A stretch of 34,362 bases of DNA from Gammaproteobacteria bacterium (GTDB lineage: Bacteria; Pseudomonadota; Gammaproteobacteria; Eutrophobiales; Eutrophobiaceae), in contig JANQJZ010000027.1 of the NCBI GenBank assembly GCA_028281365.1, positions 1 to 34,362 of the forward strand, given 5' to 3'. The position numbers and the translations under genes are program-made. Position 1 is the stretch's first letter; every line of letters starts with the position of its first letter. The notes beneath the pieces were generated by a model that was not told the DNA's origin, searched no databases, and saw nothing but the letters and a program-made list of their open reading frames with translations. Below, one piece after another: positions 4,817-31,464 of this stretch.

Positions 4817-5968
4817 ATGAGCTTTGAAGTAGAGTTAGCAAATTTAAATGAAGATTACTTCTTCAAGGAATTTACGTTCTCGAAAACCACATTTCAACCA
4901 ACACCAAAAGATGAAGTAGAGTTAGCTGATAATATTATTTGGGTTGATAGTTTTTTAATTGCCTTTCAGCTCAAAGAGCGAAATATTACCGGCGAAACAA
5001 CATCGGAGGAAGAAGAGCGTTGGTTTTCTCGCAAGGTTATTACAAAGGGTACTAAACAGATACGTGATACACTTAATTACCTACAAGAAAACGAAAAAAT
5101 AGAACTAGAAAACCACCGTGGACACTCCTTCCATCTTGAAAGTAATAAAATAGATACTGTGCATAAAGTTGTATGTTACTTACCAAATTCAGTGCTCTCC
5201 GAAGAGAGCAGGATGAAAAAGTATCATACAAGTAGCACTGCTGGTGTGATACATATCATCACTGCTATTGACTATCTTGGTTGTGTACAAACACTACTTA
5301 CACCGTCAGAACTATCAGAATATTTGTCCTTTAGAGAAGAGTTAATAAACATATGGGGCGAGAAAGTTAACTCTGTTCCAGAACCAGCAATCATGGGACA
5401 GTATTTAGAAGGGAATGAACAATCTGAACCTTCAATTGAATACATTGAAATATTGAAGACGCTTGAACATAGAGCACATGAGTGGGATATGTCAGGCATC
5501 ATAAATAAATTTCCAGATAGAGTAACAACAGATAATGAACCTACTGATTACTATCATATCGTTCGTGAAATCGCTAAATTGAAACGCAACGAACTTCGGG
5601 AGCTTAAAAAGCGATTCGAATTATCGATGGAAAAGTCCCGGAAAAATGAATTTGCTATGCCGTATAGAATGGCTATTCCACGTACAGGCTGCGGTTTTGT
5701 ATTTATACCTTTAGAAGCTGAACTCGTACCTCACCGCAGACAAGGGTTACAAAATTTGACCCATGTATGTAAGTACGATTTAAAATTAAACAAATGTCTT
5801 GGTGTGTCATTTGCGCCAGAGTCAGATGCATGGTTTTCAGTCGAGTGGTGCTTTATTGAAAGCCAATGGGAATATGATCAAGAGCTTGATGAACGGTTAA
5901 AAAATGACAACCCTTTTAGAGAAGTAAGCACTAAGGAAATTGGCAGATATGATTATAAAGACGCTTAA
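4817..5968 (+). CDS. Hypothetical protein with probable PD-(D/E)XK nuclease-like core
   Basis: I do not recognise a named family for this 383-aa, soluble, charged protein. Residues 35-53 read ELADNIIWVDSFLIAFQLK, which fits the acidic-residue plus QxK active-site pattern of Mrr-like PD-(D/E)XK enzymes: candidate metal ligands D38 and D44 and the Q51-x-K53 pair at the end of a hydrophobic strand. The middle (around 60-110) is a charged helix with RWFSRKV. The C-terminal third contains RTGCGFVFIPLE and a WFSVEW-type strand pair, with no domain I can name. There is no signal peptide and no membrane segment. The ATG is taken as start; GGAATG upstream is a weak ribosome site. It opens the accessory block and sits 43 nt before the exported small gene. 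Nuclease activity is inference from a short motif. Confidence 0.75.
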   Translation: MSFEVELANLNEDYFFKEFTFSKTTFQPTPKDEVELADNIIWVDSFLIAFQLKERNITGETTSEEEERWFSRKVITKGTKQIRDTLNYLQENEKIELENHRGHSFHLESNKIDTVHKVVCYLPNSVLSEESRMKKYHTSSTAGVIHIITAIDYLGCVQTLLTPSELSEYLSFREELINIWGEKVNSVPEPAIMGQYLEGNEQSEPSIEYIEILKTLEHRAHEWDMSGIINKFPDRVTTDNEPTDYYHIVREIAKLKRNELRELKKRFELSMEKSRKNEFAMPYRMAIPRTGCGFVFIPLEAELVPHRRQGLQNLTHVCKYDLKLNKCLGVSFAPESDAWFSVEWCFIESQWEYDQELDERLKNDNPFREVSTKEIGRYDYKDA

Positions 5969-5976
5969 ATACGCTC

Positions 5977-5997
5977 TAACATACTGTTATGCGCAAA
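5977..5997. repeat. Dyad repeat copy 2, upstream of the small exported gene
   Basis: TAACATACTGTTA (5977-5989) followed by TGCGCAAA is identical over 13 nt to 4775-4787, and the GCGCAAA tail is offset by one base. Here the tail runs directly into the AAAAGGAG ribosome binding site of the gene starting at 6012. Confidence 0.55.
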
Positions 5998-6011
5998 AGG
6001 AGTATTCGCAA

Positions 6012-6350
6012 GTGTTGATAAGAAGATTAATCCCAGTAGCCTTATCATTAATAGTGTTTTGGTCGGGTACCGTGTTTGCAGATACGGCAGGCGACTTTCG
6101 TGGCATGGAAGGATGGACGATTATAGCAACCACTCAAGTCGAGGATGAGTTTGAAGGTTGTGATTTCGATAAAGTCATCAAATTTTTGAATGGCATGGCA
6201 CTAGAGTGTTCAACTTTCAGTTACACATACTCATTTATGCCGAATGCTGTGATTTTCGCAAAACCTGCAAAACATAAAGATATGGAGTTTTACCAAATTA
6301 AGGCGTTGATTGGCGATAAACTCTACGACATGTCTCCTCGGCTAAAGTGA
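6012..6350 (+). CDS. Small exported protein of unknown function
   Basis: The start is set at GTG 6012, nine nt after AAAAGGAG (5995-6002), giving 112 aa. The open frame extends to 5940, but that longer form overlaps the preceding gene and buries the signal peptide. From GTG the protein begins MLIRRLIPVALSLIVFW with a cleavage site near TVFA/DT, a clean Sec signal peptide. The mature part is about 88 residues with two cysteines, in EGCDFDK and ALECSTF, that could form a disulfide in the periplasm. I recognise no family. It follows the nuclease-like gene and shares its upstream dyad; the two may be co-regulated. The assignment as a real gene rests on signal peptide plus ribosome site. Confidence 0.6.
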   Translation: MLIRRLIPVALSLIVFWSGTVFADTAGDFRGMEGWTIIATTQVEDEFEGCDFDKVIKFLNGMALECSTFSYTYSFMPNAVIFAKPAKHKDMEFYQIKALIGDKLYDMSPRLK

Positions 6351-6433
6351 TAATGAATGCACATCACAAGTCACTCCAAAGCGACGCGCTAAAGGTGCGC
6401 CGATGAGCCTGATCGTTACATTGCATAATTAAA

Positions 6434-7120
6434 GTGCCATATATCACTAAAAAAGAACTAGAAGTTCCACGCAGTGCGGCGGAAGTAAAGGCTTGGGTAG
6501 ATACAAAACTTGAGGAAATTAGCAAGACTGAAGAAGGAAGGCATGCAGTAAGAACTCGAGAAGGATATTTGAAAGAATTAACGGAAGAAGCGTTACCGCT
6601 TGGCATATTTTGTGAACATTATTTTAAGAGTAGTAAATGTGTAACTTTAAATCACATAATTGGCAATCAAAATCATGATGTAGTAATTACAGACAAACGT
6701 TTGCGAAAATCACCTTTAAAGTATCTAGAAATAACACAGGCACATGATGGAGAAGATGCCCATCTTCGTATGGTAAAATTAAATGAAGAAGGACATGCAA
6801 ATGCATTTGGCAAAGTTAAGAAAAGTGGAACTAAGCATACTGGACTAACTATAGAAATCAATAACGAGGCCATTGAACACGGTGAACTGGTAAGAAAGGA
6901 ATTAAAAAGAATATATGAGGCAGCAGATAGAAAAAAAAGAAAGGAATATCCGGAAGGCACAGGCCTTATAATTATTTGTGATGATTATATTGCTTTCAGG
7001 AAGCCAGAAGATATTGAACAATTGAAAGAATACATAGAAAAAAATGTGTTAGCTGGTATGAGCAATTTTACGAAAATATTTGTTATAGGCTGGTCATCTA
7101 AAATTTATTTAGAGTATTAA
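6434..7120 (+). CDS. Hypothetical protein, possible degenerate PD-(D/E)XK fold
   Basis: The product is 228 aa from GTG 6434, the first usable start after an in-frame stop at 6410; there is no strong ribosome site, so the start is uncertain. The N-terminal 60 residues are helical and charged. Residues 80-101 give a strand pair with D82 (HDVVI) and E99-I-T101 (KYLEIT), the spacing of motifs II and III in PD-(D/E)XK nucleases but with Thr in place of the catalytic Lys. Later strands are GLIIICDDY (about 177-185) and KIFVIGW near the C-terminus. No signal peptide or membrane segment is present. The fold is inferred; if correct, loss of Lys suggests a non-catalytic or unusual enzyme. The neighbours are an exported small protein and a STAS protein. 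Confidence 0.65.
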   Translation: MPYITKKELEVPRSAAEVKAWVDTKLEEISKTEEGRHAVRTREGYLKELTEEALPLGIFCEHYFKSSKCVTLNHIIGNQNHDVVITDKRLRKSPLKYLEITQAHDGEDAHLRMVKLNEEGHANAFGKVKKSGTKHTGLTIEINNEAIEHGELVRKELKRIYEAADRKKRKEYPEGTGLIIICDDYIAFRKPEDIEQLKEYIEKNVLAGMSNFTKIFVIGWSSKIYLEY

Positions 7121-7156
7121 TTTAATACAAGATAACCAATCGTTGATAGAAGAAAG

Positions 7157-7555
7157 ATGGTAAAAAAAATTATCACAAAAGACGATATTGAATTACCGGC
7201 TTTATTTGAATGCGTAGAAGACTATGGCGGTTATGTTATTGTTCGATTAACAGGGATTGACGACTCCACAGTGGTTTCTCAGCACGATCGAGAAATTGAT
7301 GCCGTAAAAAAAGAACTGGACCTTCTTAATAGACATATCATTGCAGATTTTTCAAATGTCACAAAAATCGATAGTTCTACTGTGGCGGCCATATTATTAC
7401 GGGTAAAAGAACTTATGGAACATGGACGTCAGCTCTTCTTTATCAATGCTTCCGAAGAACTAAAGGGTTTGGTGGCTGTGCATAAGCTTTCTAATATTAT
7501 AAAGTTTTACGAGACAGAAAAAGATGCGCTCAGGGCTTTAGAGGTTATAGAATAA
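7157..7555 (+). CDS. Single-domain STAS protein (anti-sigma factor antagonist-like)
   Basis: This 132-aa protein is one STAS domain. The strand-turn IADFSNVTKIDSSTVAAIL (about 62-80) carries D72-S73-S74, matching the Asp-Ser-Ser turn where SpoIIAA/RsbV proteins are phosphorylated by a partner kinase; FFINASEEL and the C-terminal helix complete the fold. Known relatives switch anti-sigma kinases or act as modules in transport and lipid-asymmetry systems. Neither a kinase/phosphatase partner nor an Mla transporter is nearby, so its partner is unknown. It follows the 228-aa gene by 36 nt with an AGAAGAAAG ribosome site. The 178 nt after it, up to serS, show no feature I can support. Confidence 0.82.
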   Translation: MVKKIITKDDIELPALFECVEDYGGYVIVRLTGIDDSTVVSQHDREIDAVKKELDLLNRHIIADFSNVTKIDSSTVAAILLRVKELMEHGRQLFFINASEELKGLVAVHKLSNIIKFYETEKDALRALEVIE

Positions 7556-21087: not shown

Positions 21088-21666
21088 ATGAAATTCTGGT
21101 TTTGTTTAGAATTAATATTATTAGGTTTTGTTACTAATATTACCTATGCTGCGACCTTATCTAATGTCAACGTAGAAAAACAGGGTGAGAAATATATTTT
21201 ACATGTACAAGCCCGGGTTTTTGCAGAGGCTGAAATAGTAAAAGATATAATCACTGATTTTAGTAACCTTCCGTCAATAAATCCCTATCTTAAAAAAAGT
21301 CAGATAATTAACAGGGATGGCAAATCTACTACTGTTAATATGTTAACAGAAGCCTGTGTATTAATAATTTGTTATAAAATTAATGATACCCAGTCATTCA
21401 GGTTCCTGAATAATGAAACTTTATTTAGTAATACAATACCCAATATGAGTGATTTTAAATACGGCTGGTATAGATGGATAATAAGAAAAAATGACTCTTT
21501 CCCTGAAAAAACAATAACCGAAATTACTCTGGACAGTGAAGTTATTCCTGATTTTTTTATTCTTCCAATAATCGGGACATATCATTTAAAGAAGAAGATT
21601 CTTGATATAGCAGAGATAACAATCAAAAATCTTGAAATTACGGCACAAAAAAAAGCAGTTAACTAA
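21088..21666 (+). CDS. Exported SRPBCC-like (polyketide cyclase/START fold) protein
   Basis: The product (192 aa) has a signal peptide ending ITYA/ATL (about residue 22). The mature part starts with a beta strand and then ITDFSNLPSINPYLKKSQIINRDG, which resembles the first helix and strand of SRPBCC/Bet v 1-type lipid-binding domains; the C-terminal long helix (KKKILDIAEITIKNLE) fits that fold. Two cysteines lie in ACVLIICYK. AAGGAG is 15 nt before the ATG, slightly far. A periplasmic hydrophobic-ligand carrier is a reasonable guess; no pathway partner is visible. The stop codon overlaps the stop of the convergent HDAC-like gene. Confidence 0.7.
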   Translation: MKFWFCLELILLGFVTNITYAATLSNVNVEKQGEKYILHVQARVFAEAEIVKDIITDFSNLPSINPYLKKSQIINRDGKSTTVNMLTEACVLIICYKINDTQSFRFLNNETLFSNTIPNMSDFKYGWYRWIIRKNDSFPEKTITEITLDSEVIPDFFILPIIGTYHLKKKILDIAEITIKNLEITAQKKAVN

Positions 21667-22664
21667 TCACCAAGTAATGTCCTTACATGTGCTACTACTG
21701 CCCGGGCATTGCCGGAAAGGTTATATCCCCCTTCAAGAATTGAAACTAATTTACCATTACAATGTTGCCTGGCAATCTGCATGACGATCCTGGTCAATTC
21801 TATAAATCCATTATCGGTAATATTAAAACAACCCAGCAGATCATCCTTACGACTATCAAACCCGGCAGAAACAAGGACCATGTCAGGTTTAAAACTATCT
21901 GCTACAGGTAATAACTCTTTATTAAAAACATCAATTATTTTTTCGTCGGTAGTTCCGCATGGTAAATGAATATTAATATTATATCCTTCTCCTGCTCCAC
22001 TGCCTTTCCTGTCGGGATGACCCGTGCCGGGATAAGCATAAAAATCATGCGTAGAAAAAAACAAAACACTGGGATCATCATAAAACATTACTTCGGTTGC
22101 ATTGCCGTGATGGTAATCCCAGTCAATGATAAGTATCTTTTTTAGTCCATATCTTTTTTGCGCATATTTTGCTGCTATTGCTATATTATTGAAATAACAG
22201 AAACCTTCTTCCTTGCCTGTATTCAAAGCATGATGTCCGGGTGGTCTTGTTGCACAAAAAGCATTATCAATCTTATTCTCGTTAATTAAATCTACTGCAG
22301 ATAGACAAGCGCCTACTCCAGAGGTGGCGACACGATAGGCAATTGGATTATGTCGTTTAATAGAAACAATATGATTATCAGTATGGACCGAATTAAGCCA
22401 TGCTTCAGTATCCTGTTTTATCTGTAATGAGACAATTTTCTCTACCAGACCGGAATCAGCCATTGCAGTTTGAATATACCTGAACCTTTCCGGACTCTCC
22501 GGGTGACCTGCATCGATATGGTGTTGTAAAAAAACAGGATCATCGATAAACCCGGTCATGTTTTTACTGCTATTCGTATTTGTTTTGTCTGCAGCAAAAA
22601 TACGTGTCTGGTAAGACAGCAACATTGATGATAAAACGCCTGAAATAAAGGTTCTGCGGTTCAT
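21663..22664 (-). CDS. Histone deacetylase-like amidohydrolase with Tat-type signal
   Basis: The product (333 aa) has an N-terminus MNRRTFISGVLSSML, a twin-arginine-type signal with a hydrophobic core and possible cleavage near FAA/DK. The enzyme domain is a class I/II HDAC-like fold: PPGHH (141-145), zinc ligands D183 and H185 in DWDYHHGNAT, third ligand D270 in SAGFD, and the catalytic Tyr Y314 in LEGGYN. All active-site residues are present, so it should deacetylate an acyl-lysine, acetylpolyamine or similar amide. Export of a folded zinc enzyme by Tat is consistent with the signal. Relatives such as HDAH and acetylpolyamine amidohydrolase are usually cytosolic. It stands alone on the minus strand. 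Confidence 0.88.
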   Translation of the reverse strand: MNRRTFISGVLSSMLLSYQTRIFAADKTNTNSSKNMTGFIDDPVFLQHHIDAGHPESPERFRYIQTAMADSGLVEKIVSLQIKQDTEAWLNSVHTDNHIVSIKRHNPIAYRVATSGVGACLSAVDLINENKIDNAFCATRPPGHHALNTGKEEGFCYFNNIAIAAKYAQKRYGLKKILIIDWDYHHGNATEVMFYDDPSVLFFSTHDFYAYPGTGHPDRKGSGAGEGYNINIHLPCGTTDEKIIDVFNKELLPVADSFKPDMVLVSAGFDSRKDDLLGCFNITDNGFIELTRIVMQIARQHCNGKLVSILEGGYNLSGNARAVVAHVRTLLGD

Positions 22665-22728
22665 TTTTTCATGTAATACTGTTATTTTTGATAGTTATGT
22701 CAATTATAAGTATAAAGTTTTGTTCGAT

Positions 22729-23229
22729 ATGATTTTAGTGCGAAAGCTGGTTTTAATACTATTGTTTTGTCCGCTGACCGTTTTGGCTGAATGGAAAGTT
22801 ATCACTCATACAGATACTAATAGTCAAACTGAAACCCAGGTCGCGTATACAAAGAATGATGAGGGATACAGCCTGGAAATATATAAGGACAGTGTTGGCG
22901 CTGTCCGTTCACGTTTTAGCCTCAATGCCGCATTAGACATGTTCGCAAAGCGTAGCTGCCCAACTTATCAGGTCGATACCAGATTGCTTGATAATCGTTC
23001 AATAAATGATGCGCCTTGTTTAACAGATTTCACCTGGAGTGAATTTGTTCTAGGTTATATTGTGGATAACCAGGTTACTTCCGGACGGCTTAATGCTCTG
23101 ATGAATGGCAGCAATATCACGTTCCGTTTTATGCTGGAAAATGGTGAATACCGTGAGACATCATTTTCTCTTGCAGGGTCAAAGCGTGCGACCTTAAATG
23201 TCATAGGGAATATAACAATCATTCCCTGA
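22729..23229 (+). CDS. Exported protein of unknown function
   Basis: The product is 166 aa from ATG 22729. The frame begins at TTG 22720 and a GTG at 22738 is also possible; none has a clear ribosome site. The N-terminus MILVRKLVLILLFCPLTVLA is a signal peptide cleaved before EWKV. The mature protein is rich in beta strands (SLEIYKD, VRSRFSLN) with two cysteines in RSCPTYQ and APCLTDF that could pair. I recognise no family. It ends 18 nt before the FemAB-like gene and may be in one unit with it, aat, bpt and infA. Confidence 0.65.
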   Translation: MILVRKLVLILLFCPLTVLAEWKVITHTDTNSQTETQVAYTKNDEGYSLEIYKDSVGAVRSRFSLNAALDMFAKRSCPTYQVDTRLLDNRSINDAPCLTDFTWSEFVLGYIVDNQVTSGRLNALMNGSNITFRFMLENGEYRETSFSLAGSKRATLNVIGNITIIP

Positions 23230-28486: not shown

Positions 28487-29110
28487 CTAGTGATGCCCCT
28501 CATGTTCGCGAATCCCATGCATGACCTCTACCATCTTTAATGCTTCCTGTTCCATAGCAATAATTAATTCATCTACTCTGCCACGAAAATATCGATGAAA
28601 CATCAGGCTTGGAATAGCAACCGATAAACCTGCTGCGGTAGTTATCAACGCCTCCGATATACCCTCAGATAAAACGCTGGGGTCACCAACACCATGTGCG
28701 GTGATTACAGTAAAGACTTTTATCATGCCGATAACTGTACCCAAAAGACCCAGTAAAGGAGAAATTGATGCGATTGTGCCTAGTGTATTCAGGAAACGTT
28801 CGAGTTCATGCGCAACGTGACGCCCGACCTCTTCAATGCCCTCTTTCATTATTTCACGGGAATGTTTGCGGTTTACCAAGCCTGCAGCCAGAATCATCCC
28901 CAAAGGTGAACTTTCGCGCAGATCCTGAATTCGCTTGGCATCCAAATGCCCTACTTTTTCCCATTGCCAAACCCTGGCTACAAGATTTCTGGGGGCAATT
29001 TTACTTTGCCTTAAAGACCAGAATCGCTCAGCGATAATTGCCATAGCAATGATGGAACATAAGATAATCGGCCACATCAGTAAGCCGCCGGCCTTGATTA
29101 ATTCAAGCAC
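28487..29110 (-). CDS. exbB: MotA/TolQ/ExbB family proton-channel subunit
   Basis: The product (207 aa) has three membrane segments: the first near the N-terminus, and the second and third around LGTIASISPLLGLLGTVIGMI and EALITTAAGLSVAIPSLM, the signature stretches of the family. It forms the pentameric channel around ExbD/TolR helices. It lies 65 nt downstream of comEC in the same orientation. In Pseudomonas the same pair is next to comEC and lpxK. Confidence 0.93.
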   Translation of the reverse strand: MLELIKAGGLLMWPIILCSIIAMAIIAERFWSLRQSKIAPRNLVARVWQWEKVGHLDAKRIQDLRESSPLGMILAAGLVNRKHSREIMKEGIEEVGRHVAHELERFLNTLGTIASISPLLGLLGTVIGMIKVFTVITAHGVGDPSVLSEGISEALITTAAGLSVAIPSLMFHRYFRGRVDELIIAMEQEALKMVEVMHGIREHEGHH

Positions 29111-29175
29111 TTAATTTACTCCAAAATGATTATTATTGATTTGGTTCCCCAGGATATAAATATAATATGCCAACA

Positions 29176-31464
29176 TCAGTCAGTCGCAAAATGCCAGATT
29201 TTCTGATTCTGCTTGCGGTACTCAGCTATTTCCAGACCACCTTTTCTGACCTTGACCAGTAAAGCACCGGATTGGTAACTAAATCTTGTATCCACCCCAA
29301 GATCCTCATAGCGCTGTATTATATCCTGTTTCGGGAAACCGAAGCGATTTCTATATCCAACCGGGAAAAAGGCATATTTTGGATTGACTTTTTTTATAAA
29401 CTCCGGCGTTGACGAGGTCTTACTACCATGATGAGGCACAATGAGAATATCTGCCTTTAATCTGGAAGGGTTATTATTTGTTAACGTAAATTCGGCCTGT
29501 TTTTCTATATCTCCTGTTAATAATATCGAACCATTTTGACTTGAAACCTTGAGTACACACGATGCATTGTTTCCTTTTAATTTCAATTTCCCCGGATGTA
29601 ATATTTCAAAATCGACGCCATCCCAATTCCATTTTTGCCCGGCATAACAGTGTTCTGTAACAGGGTTATTTATTTTGTCAGGTACGCTACTGAAAATATT
29701 TTTAATCTCGTAATCAATCAATAATGCATCTGCCCCGCCGATATGATCATTGTCGCCATGGCTGACAATGAGTGTAGAAATCTCATTAACCCCTTCAGAT
29801 TTTAGATACGGAATAATGATATTCGCACCTGCATTAAAACGATCTGAAAATTTTGCGCCTGTATCATAAACAAGCACCTCATTTTTTGTCTGGATAACTG
29901 CTGCAAGACCTTGCCCGACATCAAGCAGTGTGAAATTAAATTCGTCAAACTCCAGTTTGGCTTGCATCTGAAATAGTAGAGGCAACAACCAGATCACACC
30001 TAAAAATCGTATTGCAACACCTTTAGGTGTCAGTAAAAACAAAACGCCTGCAATCGAGAGTGATAATATTAATAAATTAGGTATGGAAATATTAACAAGA
30101 CTATAATTATTGTTTGCTATTATATTCAAAATGTACCAAACAATATGATTAAGCACTTCAATTAAATCAAATAATTTTTCTGATATAGATGGAAGAAAAA
30201 ATAACAAAATAATAGCAAGCAACAGAACCGGCAAAATAATAAATCCGATTACTGGAATTGCTATCAGGTTAGCGAGAAAACTATAAACAGGGATATGGTT
30301 AAACCAATAAACTAAAAATGGAAGCAAGGCAAAACTCAAATAAAGTTGTATCTGAATCCACTGTTTATACTTTGATATGGCGACATAACGAAAACGTGTT
30401 AAATATATAATTAGAAAAACAGCCGTAAAAGAAAGCCAGAAATCTATCGCCAATACCGCTAATGGGTCGAGTATTAATATCAGAAAAATTGCCAGTGAAA
30501 TAATATCTGAAATTTTATATCTCAGACCTGATAATTGACTTAATAAAAACAAACTAATCATTATCAACGCACGTTGAGTTGGCAATGAAAAACCGGCTAA
30601 TCCCGCATAAAACAGGATTGCCGTAAATGATATCAATGAAGCAAACAATGGAACTGACAAATAATGCATCTTAAAGAGAAAAAATCTACATACAAAAATA
30701 CTGCATAAATAGACAATTCCACAGATTAAAGACAGGTGTAAACCTGATATAGCTATTAAATGATTGGTACCGGTTTTGGTTAGAAGTTGTCTGGTATCTA
30801 TTTGTAATAAACTTCTGTCGCCAAGACTTAAGGCTATAGCAAAACCCAGTAAGGGCTGTTCAAGACTTTGTTTTAATTTATTGGCAATGTTATATCTTAT
30901 CGTCTGAATTAAATATCCGGATTGCATCCCTATTTTTTGGTTATTTGCATCATTTTTAACATATGCGATATAAGCAATACCTTGTCTCAACATCCAGGCT
31001 TCGTAATCAAACCCGCCCGGATTCATGAAACTGTATGGACGCTTCATCTTTATTTTTAATTGCCACCGTTCTCCGGGCCTGGGAAATTGTGTTGGACGAT
31101 ACCAGCTTACCCGTATTTTCCCTTTGATCTTTATTTTTTTATTATCCACTGTTTCTACATACGCCTTATCCAGAATAAACCTGTATTGATCTTTATAGGT
31201 TTCAGGTAGAGAGACGACTGTCGCGCTGACTATTTTTTCATTTTGATCAAATGATTTATCTGATGCGGGTATTAGGGCATAATCCACGCGGATTAGTGCC
31301 CAGCTAAACCCCAGGCAAAATAAAAGAATTGGCTTGAACCAGGTGTAATATCTGTCGGCTATATATAAAACGGGTAAGACCAGGACAATTTTTAAAGGAG
31401 GTAATGCAGCAAGATGCAACAGGCATATACAACCCAATACAAATGCCAGCGTCCCTGCGAGCAT
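29176..31464 (-). CDS. comEC: DNA internalization competence protein ComEC/Rec2
   Basis: The product (762 aa, full length) forms the inner-membrane channel for transforming DNA. The N-terminal DUF4131 region (about 1-190) includes an OB-like stretch; the Competence domain (about 205-475) shows HLIAISGLHLSLICG and GLAGFSLPTQRALIMI; the C-terminal metallo-beta-lactamase domain (from about 510) has LLDVGQG and SHGDNDHIGG with H569, D571, D573 and H574, plus VPHHGSKTS. The catalytic motif is intact, so the nuclease function proposed for this domain may be active. No pilus or comEA gene is in the window. Confidence 0.94.
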   Translation of the reverse strand: MLAGTLAFVLGCICLLHLAALPPLKIVLVLPVLYIADRYYTWFKPILLFCLGFSWALIRVDYALIPASDKSFDQNEKIVSATVVSLPETYKDQYRFILDKAYVETVDNKKIKIKGKIRVSWYRPTQFPRPGERWQLKIKMKRPYSFMNPGGFDYEAWMLRQGIAYIAYVKNDANNQKIGMQSGYLIQTIRYNIANKLKQSLEQPLLGFAIALSLGDRSLLQIDTRQLLTKTGTNHLIAISGLHLSLICGIVYLCSIFVCRFFLFKMHYLSVPLFASLISFTAILFYAGLAGFSLPTQRALIMISLFLLSQLSGLRYKISDIISLAIFLILILDPLAVLAIDFWLSFTAVFLIIYLTRFRYVAISKYKQWIQIQLYLSFALLPFLVYWFNHIPVYSFLANLIAIPVIGFIILPVLLLAIILLFFLPSISEKLFDLIEVLNHIVWYILNIIANNNYSLVNISIPNLLILSLSIAGVLFLLTPKGVAIRFLGVIWLLPLLFQMQAKLEFDEFNFTLLDVGQGLAAVIQTKNEVLVYDTGAKFSDRFNAGANIIIPYLKSEGVNEISTLIVSHGDNDHIGGADALLIDYEIKNIFSSVPDKINNPVTEHCYAGQKWNWDGVDFEILHPGKLKLKGNNASCVLKVSSQNGSILLTGDIEKQAEFTLTNNNPSRLKADILIVPHHGSKTSSTPEFIKKVNPKYAFFPVGYRNRFGFPKQDIIQRYEDLGVDTRFSYQSGALLVKVRKGGLEIAEYRKQNQKIWHFATD

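Follow-up and report, generated by a model that had tools for sequence, protein, structure and literature searches.

An HDAC-superfamily protein with a conserved Tat-type signal and a truncated L2 loop, predicted to belong to an exported bacterial branch

Enzymes of the histone deacetylase (HDAC) superfamily are usually described as cytosolic, nuclear, organellar or injected into hosts. Graf et al. (2024, PMC11532494) describe the bacterial HdaH, AcuC-type and ApaH enzymes (clusters 1, 2 and 4), whose deacetylases have the motifs RPPGHH and EGGY in common and in which the L1 and L2 loops drive oligomer formation and specificity. They also describe cluster 3 deacetylases, with GLPSHH in place of the RPP motif, and the Legionella protein LphD, a bacterial HDAC secreted into host cells by type IV secretion. 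The main text of that paper mentions neither periplasm, signal peptide, signal sequence, twin-arginine nor Tat signal, and neither Methylophaga nor Thiotrich. Among the titles and abstract beginnings listed in searches of the openly licensed PubMed Central literature, a collection outside which most subscription journals lie, none describes an exported HDAC. The protein described here has the RPPGHH and EGGY motifs; unlike the HdaH, AcuC and ApaH deacylases it belongs to a clade with a truncated L2 loop. Like LphD and the cluster 3 enzymes it would act away from its own cytoplasm, and it differs from them in its RPPGHH motif and its Tat-type signal.

The gene was found in a gammaproteobacterial contig, of which the whole stretch analysed (34,362 nucleotides) is called the window. 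Its open reading frame on the minus strand starts with ATG and encodes an HDAC-fold product of 333 amino acids plus stop. The profile PF00850 (Hist_deacetyl) matched residues 54-330 with 289.5 bits (cut-off 27.9). The gene and its active-site residues, the latter placed by alignment, are as follows.

21663..22664, minus strand: CDS of the predicted exported HDAC-superfamily protein (Pfam Hist_deacetyl 3.8e-86; AlphaFold2 pLDDT 89.9)
22230..22235, minus strand: catalytic His pair H144-H145 (RPPGHH)
22110..22118, minus strand: zinc ligands D183 and H185 (DWDYHHG), with the clade-specific Y184 between them
21855..21857, minus strand: zinc ligand D270
21723..21725, minus strand: catalytic Tyr Y314 (EGGY)

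The His pair, the Asp-His-Asp zinc site and the Tyr were invariant in all 83 non-redundant members of the clade described below, and the first-pass annotation was right in taking the zinc and catalytic residues to be complete. The AlphaFold2 model, made with 61 aligned sequences as input, aligned over 289 residues with 5ji5, an HDAC-superfamily protein of Burkholderia phymatum (Z 42.6, rmsd 1.5), and gave Z scores of 41-43 with Pseudomonas aeruginosa HDAH and HDAC6 CD1 (~42 for the latter). According to the model, the window protein has the arginase-deacetylase fold. By sequence, the closest solved structures were HDAC6 domains. The HDAC6 catalytic domains (class IIb) and 5ji5 share the fold over nearly the whole mature chain and the same catalytic residues, in a comparison of PDB chains that left export signals on those chains aside. 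Compared with the clade, HDAC6 has its L2 stretch as an insertion and a shorter loop after HH; the clade adds the signal, a Cys pair, Y184, E153 and R272. RPPGHH and EGGY are tied to deacetylases and not to long-chain deacylases by Graf et al. (PMC11532494), and the window protein, having both, may thus prefer acetyl over long acyl chains.

We searched 58 genomes, the own genome and its relatives, and found a full copy in 20; besides the window copy there were 19, with identities of 52-68%. One more genome, G018, has a partial copy that also begins with RR (L032, G018:C1, ~648000). There the match to the HDAC ends at residue 165, having begun at residue 1, and the reported open frame of 24200 amino acids may stem from unread bases. 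A search of 369 genomes of the class, the own genome among them, gave 14 with a match of at least 361 bits, the next match having 299. The lowest of the 14 (L235, 361 bits) was a sister outside the clade (support 98/97) with an intact L2 loop. The phylum survey comprised 29 best-scoring loci, 60 that were hand-picked with no random draw, and 10 paralogues; the class search added 19. From the scan of named genomes the best 80 of 216 relatives were kept, leaving the outer edge of the clade unsampled, and the sample leans heavily on metagenome-assembled and single-cell genomes. Methylophaga, Methylohalomonas and Methylonatrum are among the named carriers. A plasmid search gave 171 records, all below 60% identity, the best among the matches listed having 40.1%.

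In a tree of 79 HDACs, a branch with SH-aLRT 100 separated the 45 clade rows from the rest, and a second, more carefully built tree (42 rows) supported the clade, there represented by 16 rows, with 100/100. The window protein thus sits in a well-supported clade, mostly of Proteobacteria. Two Aminicenantes members, L122 and L133, nest with Chitinivibrionales within the clade (98 in the 79-row tree, 99/95 in the 42-row tree). Their genomes were the only 2 of 99 relatives of the Aminicenantes carrier with a clade member; 15 further matches there reached 306-329 bits and had normal loops. The own genome also encodes an HDAC paralogue (G000:C32, L001; 40% identity), which shares with the window protein the HDAC domain. 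This paralogue and its family orthologues differ by an intact L2, by showing no signal and by forming a separate, well-supported clade of their own.

The N-terminus of the window protein, MNRRTFISGVLSSMLLSYQTRIFA, is of the Tat type. It is composed of N-R-R-T-F, an uncharged stretch of 16 residues (T5-T20), the basic R21 before the end of the signal, and I-F-A/A.

22593..22664, minus strand: predicted Tat-type signal peptide, residues 1-24, with probable cleavage after A24 (from the sequence; kept in orthologues)
22653..22658, minus strand: twin arginine R3-R4

R3 and R4 were invariant, and F6 nearly so, in the 20 aligned full copies from whole genomes (window copy included), one of which (L022) must begin farther upstream, the usual site being without an ATG. 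The arginine codons of the pair vary synonymously in 19 of the 20 rows checked. For the wider clade we used a heuristic rule (not TatP/SignalP), namely RR-x-[FLIVM] at most 35 residues from a possible start (M, V or L), followed by at least 11 uncharged residues. It was passed by 60 of the 78 complete clade N-termini, vs 2 of 118 other HDAC rows. The 78 come from the 80 kept relatives, without L069 and L103, in which the contig cuts the 5' end; the 118 include two duplicates and leave out L235 and the distant HDACs L252-L254. With Met starts alone none of the 118 passed, a count made on those rows and not on the clade. By eye, an RR-x-hydrophobic signal was recognized in 65 of the 78, the five beyond the rule (L079, L102, L104, L115 and L131) having runs of 9-10. 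An earlier, looser rule had flagged 4 of 99 HDAC rows, each time within open frame that precedes a plausible start. The Met-start form was passed by 61 of 81 clade ORFs, vs 33 of 1075 other nearby ORFs of at least 100 amino acids, and several of these 33 look like genuine Tat proteins. Judged from the N-termini, the export tag is a trait of the clade, not of one odd gene, and the Tat-type signal that the first-pass annotation had read in the window protein alone holds for most of its clade relatives.

Tat-type starts were also found in the three distant HDACs L252, L253 and L254 (G209:C45, G337:C18 and G293:C65), which begin with MSISRRQFI, MPSSRRQFI and MNRRQFLATT, respectively. Their L2 loop is normal, the clade signature is absent, GGGY replaces EGGY in L252 and L253, and they stand apart from the clade in the tree. 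A grouping of L252-L254 with the clade was rejected (p-AU 0.0019; L254 has a long branch and the group was named after the first tree was seen), which suggests that Tat-type signals were probably acquired at least twice.

Two cysteines accompany the signal.

21957..21959, minus strand: C236, near-invariant in the clade and present in 0% of the other HDACs aligned
21828..21830, minus strand: C279, the proposed disulfide partner of C236 (by alignment)

C236 was present in 97% and C279 in 99% of 92 clade rows (duplicates included), vs 0% and 3% of 101 others. Among the aligned, readable members (L068 has an unread base and L127 was unaligned), the full pair was missing only in L122 and L133. Both have Pro at 236; L133 also has Ser at 279, and L122 keeps C279. 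It is L122 and L133, too, that show no export signal at all, and losing the cysteines together with the signal is what a periplasmic disulfide would predict. As L122 and L133 nest inside the clade, it is simpler to assume that they lost both traits; the correlation comes from this one nested lineage of two sequences, one of them still with C279. We infer that C236 and C279 form a disulfide.

The first-pass annotation had named the presence of tatABC as a check. In the own genome (G000:C56) two TatA/B-family genes (28583-28723 and 28833-28934) and TatC (29160-29792) were found close together, and there were also DsbA-family matches. A TatC match was present in 45 of the 50 genomes holding a clade member (drafts among them) and was not found in the other five (drafts). 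The Aminicenantes genomes of L122 and L133 have TatC. One of the 45, G517, has a TatC match with five stop codons, pointing to a broken gene, a frameshift or an assembly error. Export, likewise proposed at first pass, is thus well backed in silico by the conserved signal, the tat genes and the Cys pair that accompanies the signal.

The rim of the active site sets the clade apart from other HDACs at two places.

22338..22355, minus strand: residues 104-109, the site at which the L2 rim loop is ~14 residues shorter than in other HDACs (from the length of segment 98-118)
22206..22229, minus strand: clade loop ALNTGKEE, residues 146-153, one residue longer, with N148, G150 and E153 near-invariant (by alignment)

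Segment 98-118 had 20-22 residues in 83/83 clade members, vs 33-67 in 99/99 other HDACs, and the stretch from H145 to F155 had 11 residues in 83/83, vs 10 in 99/99. These counts and those of the signature leave out duplicates, L127 (no HPE found) and, of the 99 HDACs from the survey, the 17 that matched the profile from position 60 or later, and they keep L235 and L252-L254 apart. Measured without an alignment, the distance from HPE to RPPGHH was 85-89 in 83 of 84 clade members, one being without a motif. Of 116 other HDACs, 55 were without a motif, 9 fell below this range (61-63) and 52 above it (97-151). The clade-specific residues include H98, N148, G150, E153, Y184, D207, C236, R272, C279 and D284 (83 vs 99 rows). 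In the 15 later-fetched HDACs from relatives of the Aminicenantes carrier, the two stretches had 35 and 10 residues and the signature was absent. Because L2 is truncated, an ordinary protein or acetylpolyamine deacetylase cannot simply be assumed. Without a full L2, we would expect a wider tunnel mouth that lacks the classical grips for peptides and polyamines.

We consider it probable that the window protein is a Tat-exported, open-pocket member of a distinct exported HDAC branch, working as a periplasmic deacetylase on short acyl amides. The protein would fold and take up its metal in the cytoplasm, and the Tat system would carry the folded, metal-loaded enzyme across the inner membrane. The signal would be cleaved near A24 and the C236-C279 disulfide would stabilise the protein. 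In the periplasm it would hydrolyse short N-acyl amides (probably N-acetyl ones) through the mechanism common to HDACs, with Zn2+ held by D183, H185 and D270, the His pair H144/H145, and Tyr314 polarising the carbonyl. The shortened L2 rim would give a more open tunnel mouth, and the substrate would probably be held by other residues, for which the N148/G150/E153 loop and R272 are candidates. Such a substrate need be neither peptide nor polyamine; it may be a small acyl amine from the environment, an acetylated peptide of the periplasm or a compound of a new kind. The first-pass annotation had suggested acylated amines, exported or environmental, or envelope amides as possible substrates.

Alternatively, the protein could be an exported lysine deacetylase that acts on acetylated proteins or peptides in the periplasm. 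HDAC6 domains and the Burkholderia HDAC-superfamily protein are the closest solved relatives, the RPP and EGGY motifs are present, and the gatekeeper Leu277 (82/83; Ile in one) aligns with the Leu of HDAC6 CD2. The L2 loop speaks against it. According to PMC10157890, the L2 residue D101 of KDAC8, D99 of KDAC1 or S568 of KDAC6 binds the substrate backbone. In the HDAC6 chain 9k91, the residues around 'nfdsiyic' are inserted with respect to the clade profile. We take the 'ds' to be D567-S568 of HDAC6, and with this numbering the peptide-type backbone anchor (D99/D101/S568) would fall in the stretch that is absent from the clade. Furthermore, no system for lysine acetylation of periplasmic proteins is known to us, and we regard a periplasmic lysine deacetylase as unlikely.

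The N-terminal helix could also be an uncleaved anchor or a Sec signal, with the domain membrane-bound or exported unfolded. This would suit ten members in which KR or KK replaces RR (L083, L087, L092, L109, L114, L117, L119, L120, L124 and L126), all uncultured Alphaproteobacteria with Phe-rich cores; L129 has KK only in place of RR and is carried by G517. In the ten alphaproteobacterial members the N-terminus may be a Tat signal that tolerates lysine, or they may have switched to Sec. The Cys pair is kept in the KR/KK members shown, suggesting that they are still exported, and TatC was seen in 9 of 10 of their genomes. A short, moderately hydrophobic core, a basic residue before the cleavage site and an intact RR are typical Tat features. 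The window protein has such a core, with R21 before the cleavage-like A24 and RR intact, and the signal helix in the AlphaFold2 model is uninformative about cleavage. We therefore hold an anchor or Sec signal to be rather improbable.

A third possibility is an acetylpolyamine deacetylase that moved to the periplasm, where it would free polyamines from scavenged acetylpolyamines. Small acylated amines are plausible periplasmic solutes, and acetylpolyamine amidohydrolases belong to the HDAC superfamily (PMC11532494). There, L2 of the polyamine deacetylases is described as the polyamine-specificity loop, with a Glu106-type residue. Both are features of a loop that the clade has in shortened form: instead of the extended L2 of cluster 4 ApaH we found 20-22 residues, fewer than in any of the 99 other HDACs. 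The gatekeeper, too, is Leu277 and not the Glu (PEG motif) of HDAC10. An exported acetylpolyamine deacetylase is, in our view, quite improbable.

If the true start were Met36, or the N-terminus went unrecognised, the protein would be an ordinary cytosolic HDAC-like deacetylase. An in-frame ATG is indeed present at residue 36, and the two Aminicenantes members are without a signal. Curated Tat profiles also scored weakly in a search of 20 members: PF10518 (TAT_signal) matched one (E 0.13) and NCBIfam TIGR01409 two (best E 0.11), and the window protein itself was matched by neither. Against this stand the RR pair, invariant in 20/20, and the signal-less HDAC paralogue that the genome already holds. 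The first-pass annotation had regarded a downstream start in most homologues as a result that would speak against export. The start at residue 36 is not conserved, however: in 48 of 64 RR-bearing homologues the stretch from the signal to the domain contained no ATG, GTG or TTG, and in six it contained an ATG. A cytosolic location is very unlikely.

With respect to genome context, clustering of 1253 ORFs from 81 loci (several with short flanks) gave no gene partner common across lineages. One block, which 17-26 loci of the Thiotrichaceae-like family (window included) have in common, encodes AbgT, a DUF1820 protein, a secreted uncharacterised protein and a FemAB-like protein. It also holds genes that by eye resemble aat, ate and infA, and with these housekeeping genes in it we read it as plain synteny. 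AbgT was considered as a clue to a folate-type substrate and dropped, as it was found beside the HDAC gene in one family only. In 12 Methylophaga loci an enoyl-CoA hydratase-like gene lies downstream, and in 7 loci an EAL/GGDEF-type gene lies directly upstream. The marine alphaproteobacteria have, in 10 loci each, a lipoprotein-like gene without assignment directly upstream and an HD_4 gene downstream. No neighbour gene points to a substrate.

In the window, a secreted-looking SRPBCC-like protein (Polyketide_cyc, 1.5e-05) is encoded convergently at 21088-21666 on the plus strand, its 3' end overlapping that of the HDAC gene by 4 bases. A small secreted-looking protein without Pfam match is encoded divergently at 22720-23229 (plus strand), and its homologue adjoins the HDAC gene in 22 other loci. 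Farther away, at 4817-7555 (plus strand), a STAS-like protein and two large proteins without assignment are encoded between what by eye resemble transhydrogenase genes and serS; this region may be an inserted island.

Removal of N-acetyl groups from envelope sugars (peptidoglycan, LPS) or an exported polysaccharide would fit the predicted periplasmic location and the truncated rim loop, but HDAC tunnels suit a thin alkyl-amine arm, the sugar deacetylases known to us have other folds and no cell-wall gene partner was found outside one local syntenic block, making this reading hardly credible.

Returning to the reading as an exported, open-pocket deacetylase, its extension to the family is more tentative. 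We see about an even chance that the clade is a monophyletic periplasmic HDAC branch, which acquired a Tat signal and a disulfide, lost the L2 loop that holds the substrate and so hydrolyses acyl amides unlike those of known HDACs, and that the L252-L254 lineage gained its Tat-type signal independently. If true, HDAC-type acyl-amide hydrolysis would take place in the bacterial envelope, among others in marine and methylotrophic bacteria, on substrates that nobody has sought. The export signal is easy to assay, and several carriers are named strains. The truncated L2 of the clade would serve as a natural test of the role of this loop in specificity across HDACs.
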